Below are positions 100 to 2,751 of a stretch of 7,787 nucleotides of DNA, piece by piece. A model generated the notes under the pieces. The model was not told the DNA's origin, did no database searches, and was given only the letters and a program-made list of their open reading frames with translations. Each line of letters opens with the position of its first letter. The first letter of the stretch is position 1. The position numbers and the translations under genes were made by a program. The stretch comes from Candidatus Eiseniibacteriota bacterium (GTDB taxonomy: Bacteria > JAFGKV01), in assembly GCA_025453925.1 (NCBI GenBank), contig JALOPK010000152.1:1-7787 (forward strand), given 5' to 3'.

Positions 100-2751
100 A
101 TGAGCGAACTCGCCAAGTCCTTCGAACCCGCTGCCATCGAAGCCCGCTGGACCCCGGTTTGGGAAGCCGCCGGCGCCTTCGCACCGACCCTGGATCCCGC
201 GAAGCCGTCGTTCTCGATCCAGTTGCCGCCGCCCAACGTCACCGGCACGCTGCACATGGGGCACGCGTTCAACCAGACGATCATGGATGCGCTGACGCGC
301 TACCACCGCATGCGCGGCTTCAACACGCTGTGGCTGCCGGGCACCGACCACGCCGGCATCGCCACGCAGATCGTCGTCGAGCGCCAGTTGCAGGACGCTG
401 GTCTGAGCCGCCACGACCTCGGCCGCCCGCGCTTCGTGCAGCAGGTGTGGGACTGGAAGGCCACCTCGGGTGCCACCATCTCGCGCCAGATGCGCCGCAT
501 GGGCGACAGCGTGGACTGGTCGCGCGAGTACTTCACGATGGACGACCGGCTCTCGCGCATCGTCACCGAGACCTTCGTGCGGCTGTACGACGAGGGCCTG
601 ATCTACCGCGGCCAGCGCATGGTGAGCTGGGACCCGGTGCTGAAGTCGGCGGTCTCCGACCTGGAGGTCGAGAGCGAGGAGGAGGACGGCTTCCTCTGGC
701 ACATCCGCTACCCGCTGGAAGACGGCTCCGGCCACCTCACCGTGGCCACCACGCGGCCGGAGACCATGCTCGGCGACACCGCCGTGGCCGTTCATCCGGA
801 CGATACTCGGTACCGGTCCCTTATCGGCCGAACCGCCATACTCCCCTTGGTCGGAAGAGCAATCCCCATCGTCGGTTCAACCGCGGTGGATCCTGACTTC
901 GGAACAGGGGCAGTCAAGGTCACCCCCGCCCACGATCCCGCCGACTTCCTCATCGCTTCCGCCCTCGGACTGCCCGCAATCGTCGTGCTGGCGGAAGACG
1001 GGACCATGACCCCTGCCGCCGGCGAAGAGTACGCCGGTATGGATCGGTTCCATTGCCGCGAGCGTGTCGTTGAGCAGCTCAAAGCGGAGAAGCGTATCGG
1101 GAAGATCGAGAAGCACACCCACAGCGTCGGCCACTGCCAACGGTGCCACACCGTGATCGAACCGTACCTGTCCGACCAATGGTTCGTGCGGATGAAGCCG
1201 TTGGCGGCGAAAGCGCTCGAGGCTCTCGATGCCGGTGAGCCCAACCTCATGCCCAAGCGGTGGGCTGCGGTGTACCGGTCGTGGCTGGAGAACATCCGGG
1301 ACTGGTGCATTTCCCGCCAGCTCTGGTGGGGGCACCGGATTCCGGTATGGTACTGCATCAGCTGCGGCGCGACGGTGGTTGCACGGAGCGACCCCCGGAG
1401 CTGCTCATGCGGAAGCACCACTCTCCGTCAGGACGAGGATGTCCTGGATACCTGGTTCTCCAGCTGGTTGTGGCCGTTCTCAACCATGGGCTGGCCGGAG
1501 GATACGCCGGACTACCGGCGCTTCTTCCCGACCGACCTCCTGGTTACCGGGTACGATATCATCTTCTTCTGGGTGGCCAGAATGGTGATGGCCTCGATTG
1601 AGTTCACCGGGAAGATCCCGTTCCGTGACGTGTACTTCACCGGGATGGTCAAGGACGAGATCGGCCGATGGATGAGCAAGTCGCTGGGAAACGGCATCGA
1701 TCCCATCGAGATGATCAACACCTACAGCGCCGATGCGGTGCGGTTCTCCCTTGCCATGCTGACGACCGAGGGACAGGACATCCACCTGGCTCCCAGTAAG
1801 TTCGAGATGGGGCGCAACTTCTCCAATAAGATCTGGAACGCCTACCGCCTGCTCGCCCTCAATGAGGCGATTCTGTGCGACGTCGAGAGCACGACCGTTC
1901 AGAAGCTCCAGGACGCGGGCGAGTTGGACCTTTCCGACCGGTGGATCCTCTCCCGGACCTCCCGGGCCGTGGCAGAGGCCACGGGGTATCTTGACCGGTA
2001 TCGGTTCAGCGATGCGGCGCTGACGATCTACAATTTCGTGTGGCGCGACTACTGCGACTGGTATCTCGAGCTGATCAAGTCACGGCTCGGCGGCCAGGCC
2101 ACGGCGGGAACTGTCGCCCGCACGGTCGCCACCTTCGTGTGGTCCGCCGCCCTCCGGCTGCTGCACCCGTTCATGCCCTTCATCACCGAGGAGTTGTGGC
2201 AACGGTGCTTCGAGGGCCGCGGCATGGCGGTGCGAAGCCCCTGGCCGGAATCAGATTCCCGTTTCGAGGATCCCGCCGCCGAGGCGGACATGGAGATGCT
2301 CCAGGGGATCATCCGGGCAGTCAGGAACATGAGGGGAGAAATGAACGTTCCCCCGGGGAAGCTCGCCCCGGTGATCATCAAGACCGAGTCGGAGGATGTC
2401 GCCCGATGTACGGAACGGAATCTCCGGTACGTCCAGGAACTGGGCAGGGTGAGCGCGCTCAGGATTACGCCGACGTTCAAACGCGAAGGTCCGGTGGCCT
2501 CCGCAGTGGTCGGAGCGTCCGAGGTCTTTCTCCCTCTCCAGGGGTTGGTTGACGTGCAGGCTGAACTCGCCCGTCTTCAGAAGGACCTCGCGCGTTCCGA
2601 GGAGACCCTCCGGCGATCACGACAGAAGCTTGCGAACGGGGATTTCCTGGAACGCGCTCCCCGTGACGTCGTCGATGCCGAACGGGCGCGCGCGGATGAA
2701 CTGGAGCAGCGGCGCGAGAAGCTCATCTCCTATCTGGAAGCGCTCACCTGA
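100..2751 (+). CDS. valS: valyl-tRNA synthetase (apparently mosaic)
   Basis: A cytoplasmic class Ia synthetase that charges tRNA-Val with valine. The 883-residue length is normal for bacterial ValRS. Seen in order: the HIGH-type signature HMGH (52-55) after PPPNVTGTL; the editing (CP1) domain with [11 protein letters not shown] (from about 217) and [14 protein letters not shown] (267-280); cysteine pairs C346/C349 and C419/C422 plus a tight C435/C437; the KMSKS loop, which reads WMSKS (524-528); the anticodon-binding domain with the DWYLELIK segment; and a C-terminal coiled-coil arm (about 815-883) of the ValRS type. The frame stays open upstream to a GTG at 10, with another ATG at 64, but the family N-terminus [10 protein letters not shown] begins at ATG 100. 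The ribosome binding site there is weak. The first ~230 codons look Burkholderiales-like and nearly all end in G/C, while the rest matches the other genes here. Function is certain; the integrity of the gene as one natural sequence is not. Confidence 0.95.
760..800 (+). other. composition and lineage breakpoint inside valS
   Basis: By hand count in the valS frame, 156 of 160 codons in 301-780 end in G or C, against 122 of 160 in 781-1260. Arginine shifts from almost only CGC to mainly CGG with CGT, CGA and AGA. The first T-ending codon after the change is GTT at 790. The encoded protein also changes type here: Burkholderiales-like before, and a non-proteobacterial type with HSVGHCQRC and EPYLSDQWF after. 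The junction lies in the conserved [17 protein letters not shown] block and keeps the frame. The cause could be natural recombination or an assembly join. Confidence 0.75.

Follow-up and report, generated by a model that had tools for sequence, protein, structure and literature searches.

Genes of the locus

The window, by which we mean the whole stretch of DNA that was analysed, is an entire contig (C156) of 7,787 bases. It belongs to a genome bin of 3.9 Mb (G000), made up of 502 contigs and estimated to be 82% complete and 2.9% contaminated. Its first gene is valS, encoding valyl-tRNA synthetase (ValRS), and the features that we recognise in and around that gene are collected in Table 1. We compared gene order by tblastn with contig C219 of G002, a genome of the same family that is the host's nearest relative and has an intact valS gene. 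Gene names were taken from NCBIfam.

Table 1. Features of the window and of the contig that carries the second valS start
Feature	Position	Strand	Basis or remark
Sequence before the valS start	1-99	+	Adjoins the foreign 5' part
Foreign 5' part of valS (residues 1-220), Sphaerotilaceae/Rubrivivax type	100-759	+	Identity and tree
Join, conserved block of 11 residues	760-786	+	Exact matches end at 782-786; Ala at 787-789
Host 3' part of valS (residues 230-883)	787-2751	+	69% identity with G002 (residues 233-883); G002 is sister
gmd	2861-3859	+	NCBIfam cut-off passed; 81% match in G002
NAD-epimerase gene	3814-4797	+	NCBIfam match below cut-off; same order in G002
manC (mannose-1-phosphate guanylyltransferase)	about 4790-5884	+	NCBIfam match below cut-off; same order in G002
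Sensor histidine kinase gene	5909-7360	+	NCBIfam match below cut-off; same order in G002
Native 5' end of valS, cut at contig end	L006 (G000:C19) 1-519	-	Belongs before window position 787

The DNA downstream of valS (2861-7787) contains gmd, the epimerase and mannose-1-phosphate guanylyltransferase genes, and those of the sensor kinase and a response regulator, in an order that is kept in G002; it is probably a conserved GDP-sugar cluster beside a two-component system. The genes from 2861 to 7360 are genuine downstream neighbours of the host valS gene.

The valS open reading frame is unremarkable when judged by family models. Taken as a whole it scores far above the NCBIfam cut-offs for ValRS (1197 bits against 704 for NF004349, and 1089 against 612 for TIGR00422, valS), and it does so because each of its halves is a true part of a ValRS. 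Both parts of the window gene, and the fragment of a second valS gene on another contig of the bin, are ordinary members of this family, whereas probably no cell contains the full-length reading frame of the window.

A change of lineage inside valS

Identity profiles and trees agree on a switch of lineage within valS (100-2751), lying between about 760 and 786. In the protein, residues 1-172 are 84-86% identical to ValRS of the Rubrivivax type and 51.2% identical to that of G002, whereas residues 233-883 share 69% identity with G002 and 40-42% with Rubrivivax. At the DNA level, positions 98-786 are 84-86% identical to loci of the Rubrivivax type, the alignment beginning at about 97-99. The closest protein match to the foreign 5' part has 89% identity, and with this as the best match no donor was found at the level of species. 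Upstream of about 93-99 the window did not align with the Rubrivivax loci; judged only by its continuity with the foreign part, the sequence from 1 to 99 is probably the intergenic leader of the same Rubrivivax-like source.

Separate trees of the two parts give full support to their placement in different clades: the N-terminal part (residues 1-172) lies inside the Burkholderiales (100/99) and the C-terminal part (residues 237-883) is the sister of G002 (100/100). An earlier note on this DNA, made from the sequence alone, had described valS as a mosaic of two lineages with a 5' part of Burkholderiales type and a remainder of non-proteobacterial type, and that description is confirmed in each of its elements by the profiles and the trees. 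A single contig thus contains two parts from distant lineages, and the part from 787 to 2751 is the genuine valS gene of the organism in the bin.

The junction, which had been put near 780-795, was right to within a few bases and the breakpoint can now be placed in 760-786. Exact matching to the Burkholderiales side reaches 786, with several loci sharing 763-786 and one sharing 760-786, and these exact stretches of 23-27 bases are common to many Burkholderiales valS genes. From 787 the window encodes alanine (TAVAV) where nearly all TAV-type sequences of the Burkholderiales set have methionine (TAVMVH). The join sits in the most conserved block of valS, a block of 11-13 residues, and the reading frame is intact across it.

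Codon use changes at the same place. Our recount reproduced exactly the earlier figures for codons ending in G or C (156 of 160 in 301-780 against 122 of 160 in 781-1260; Fisher p = 7e-9). Arginine is encoded by CGC (14 codons) and CGG (3) before the junction, and after it by CGG (6), CGT (2), CGA, AGA and CGC (1 each). A control set of 85 intact valS genes, in which the G/C3 difference was taken at the same block, gave a mean of 0.002 with a standard deviation of 0.041 and a maximum of 0.138; the value for the window is 0.2125. The G/C3 of the foreign part (0.94) equals that of Rubrivivax (0.91-0.96), and the host part (0.81) equals the second valS fragment (0.82). The switch of lineage is nevertheless much stronger evidence than codon use.

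The native 5' end on a second contig

We found the start of a second valS gene in the same bin, on a contig of 3,078 bases (C19) whose end cuts the gene after 173 codons, at another conserved valS block, GLIYRG. The encoded fragment is 75.4% identical to the ValRS of G002; its identity with Rubrivivax and with the 5' part of the window gene is in each case about 51-53%, and in the tree of residues 1-172 it is the sister of G002 (100/97). The true continuation of the host gene is therefore present in the assembly as a broken end, with native genes upstream of it.

Gene order unites the two contigs. In G002 an unbroken contig carries trpS, a gene of 426 amino acids, aroQ, valS, gmd, the epimerase gene, manC, the kinase gene and the regulator gene. 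C19 carries trpS, a gene of 429 amino acids, aroQ and the start of valS, while the remainder of valS, with every gene that follows it in the G002 order, is found on C156. Because their joint gene order equals that of G002, C19 and C156 represent the two sides of one break, and C19 followed by C156 constitutes two pieces of one locus. In G002 coordinates C19 ends at L148:11242 and the window's host part starts no later than L148:11417, from which we infer that about 150-175 bases are missing between the contigs. In principle, the strain that gave C19 may not be the one that gave C156. A genome of the same genus (G001, estimated to be 94% complete) was of no use as a comparator because valS, gmd and aroQ have no close counterparts in it; it probably has an assembly gap over the same locus.

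Foreign sequence takes up the left end of the contig, with no second junction leading back to host DNA. Searches of the bin revealed neither a reciprocal chimera nor a Burkholderiales 3' part of valS, and the foreign 5' DNA was found nowhere else in it. Searches of plasmid and phage collections yielded nothing but distant or short partial matches to ValRS, giving no sign in those collections of a mobile element as the carrier of the 5' part.

Origin of the hybrid reading frame

The switch of lineage, the presence of the native 5' end in the bin and the gene order across the break together make the case that the hybrid valS gene is a metagenome misassembly, a chimeric contig in which Rubrivivax-like DNA has been joined to host DNA; we put the probability of this at about 0.96. 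The join was probably made by the assembler, and a short k-mer shared by the two genes was probably its cause. A short-read assembler, extending the valS gene of a Rubrivivax-like betaproteobacterium, would have passed into that of an unrelated uncultured bacterium at a stretch of about 25 bases common to both genes within a conserved block of 13 residues. Measured against the loci that we have seen, the shared stretch would be at most about 27 bases long. That the frame is unbroken would be due only to the homology of the shared block, which encodes identical residues in both genes; the host gene's own 5' end would have been left as the dead end of C19, and the bases between the two contigs would have been lost. 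An assembler join at a short shared stretch explains why the junction is in frame, why foreign DNA extends to the contig's end and why C19 stops at another conserved block. The joining of fragments from several sources by misassembly is a recognised, if relatively rare, error in metagenome-assembled genomes (GUNC paper, PMC8201837). The present case resembles the inter-species chimeric contigs of that work in that a single contig unites fragments of two sources, which meet here in a conserved coding block, but differs from them in that the join lies in frame inside one gene and so mimics a hybrid protein.

The earlier note had considered an assembly join at least as likely as recombination; the native 5' end on C19, with the correct upstream genes, now favours the join strongly. 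The alternative of a natural hybrid supposes that in some cells the 5' end of valS was exchanged by recombination for the homologous betaproteobacterial part, while others, the source of C19, kept the native gene. Some cells of the uncultured lineage would then express a ValRS with 225 betaproteobacterial residues at its N-terminus, spanning the beginning of the catalytic domain as far as the entrance of the editing domain, and would live beside cells with the native gene. A mixed population of this kind would also yield both contigs, and the intact frame and the family scores of the whole reading frame are in keeping with it, although an intact frame is expected of any join at a homologous coding block. 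It requires, however, that the native gene should survive in the same bin as the hybrid, and the native 5' end is indeed there in its native gene context, which leaves the proposal of a natural hybrid enzyme made by homologous recombination unsupported, as it does the presentation of valS as a mosaic gene in the heading of the earlier note. Moreover, no host sequence flanks the foreign part on its outer side, where it reaches the contig end. At the join, exact matches between the two lineages are short, and the proteins agree in only about half of their residues; so little shared sequence is poor ground for homologous recombination. We regard both this origin and the existence of such cells as very improbable. 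Less probable still, to the point of being negligible, is a host with two valS genes, one native and one an acquired hybrid, for although the bin holds two valS 5' ends it has only one 3' part, with the native downstream order of G002, and the native 5' end has the native upstream order, both fitting one locus in two pieces.

The importance of a misassembly at this locus is one of caution only. Without correction, the contig would be taken up by databases as encoding a hybrid aminoacyl-tRNA synthetase, and would there suggest, wrongly, a gene transfer between distant bacteria. A cheap test was used here: the same bin is searched for the missing native end, and gene order is compared with that of the nearest relative. 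There is nothing biologically new in the hybrid gene, which is an artefact set in otherwise ordinary biology, and the host would make an ordinary valyl-tRNA synthetase.
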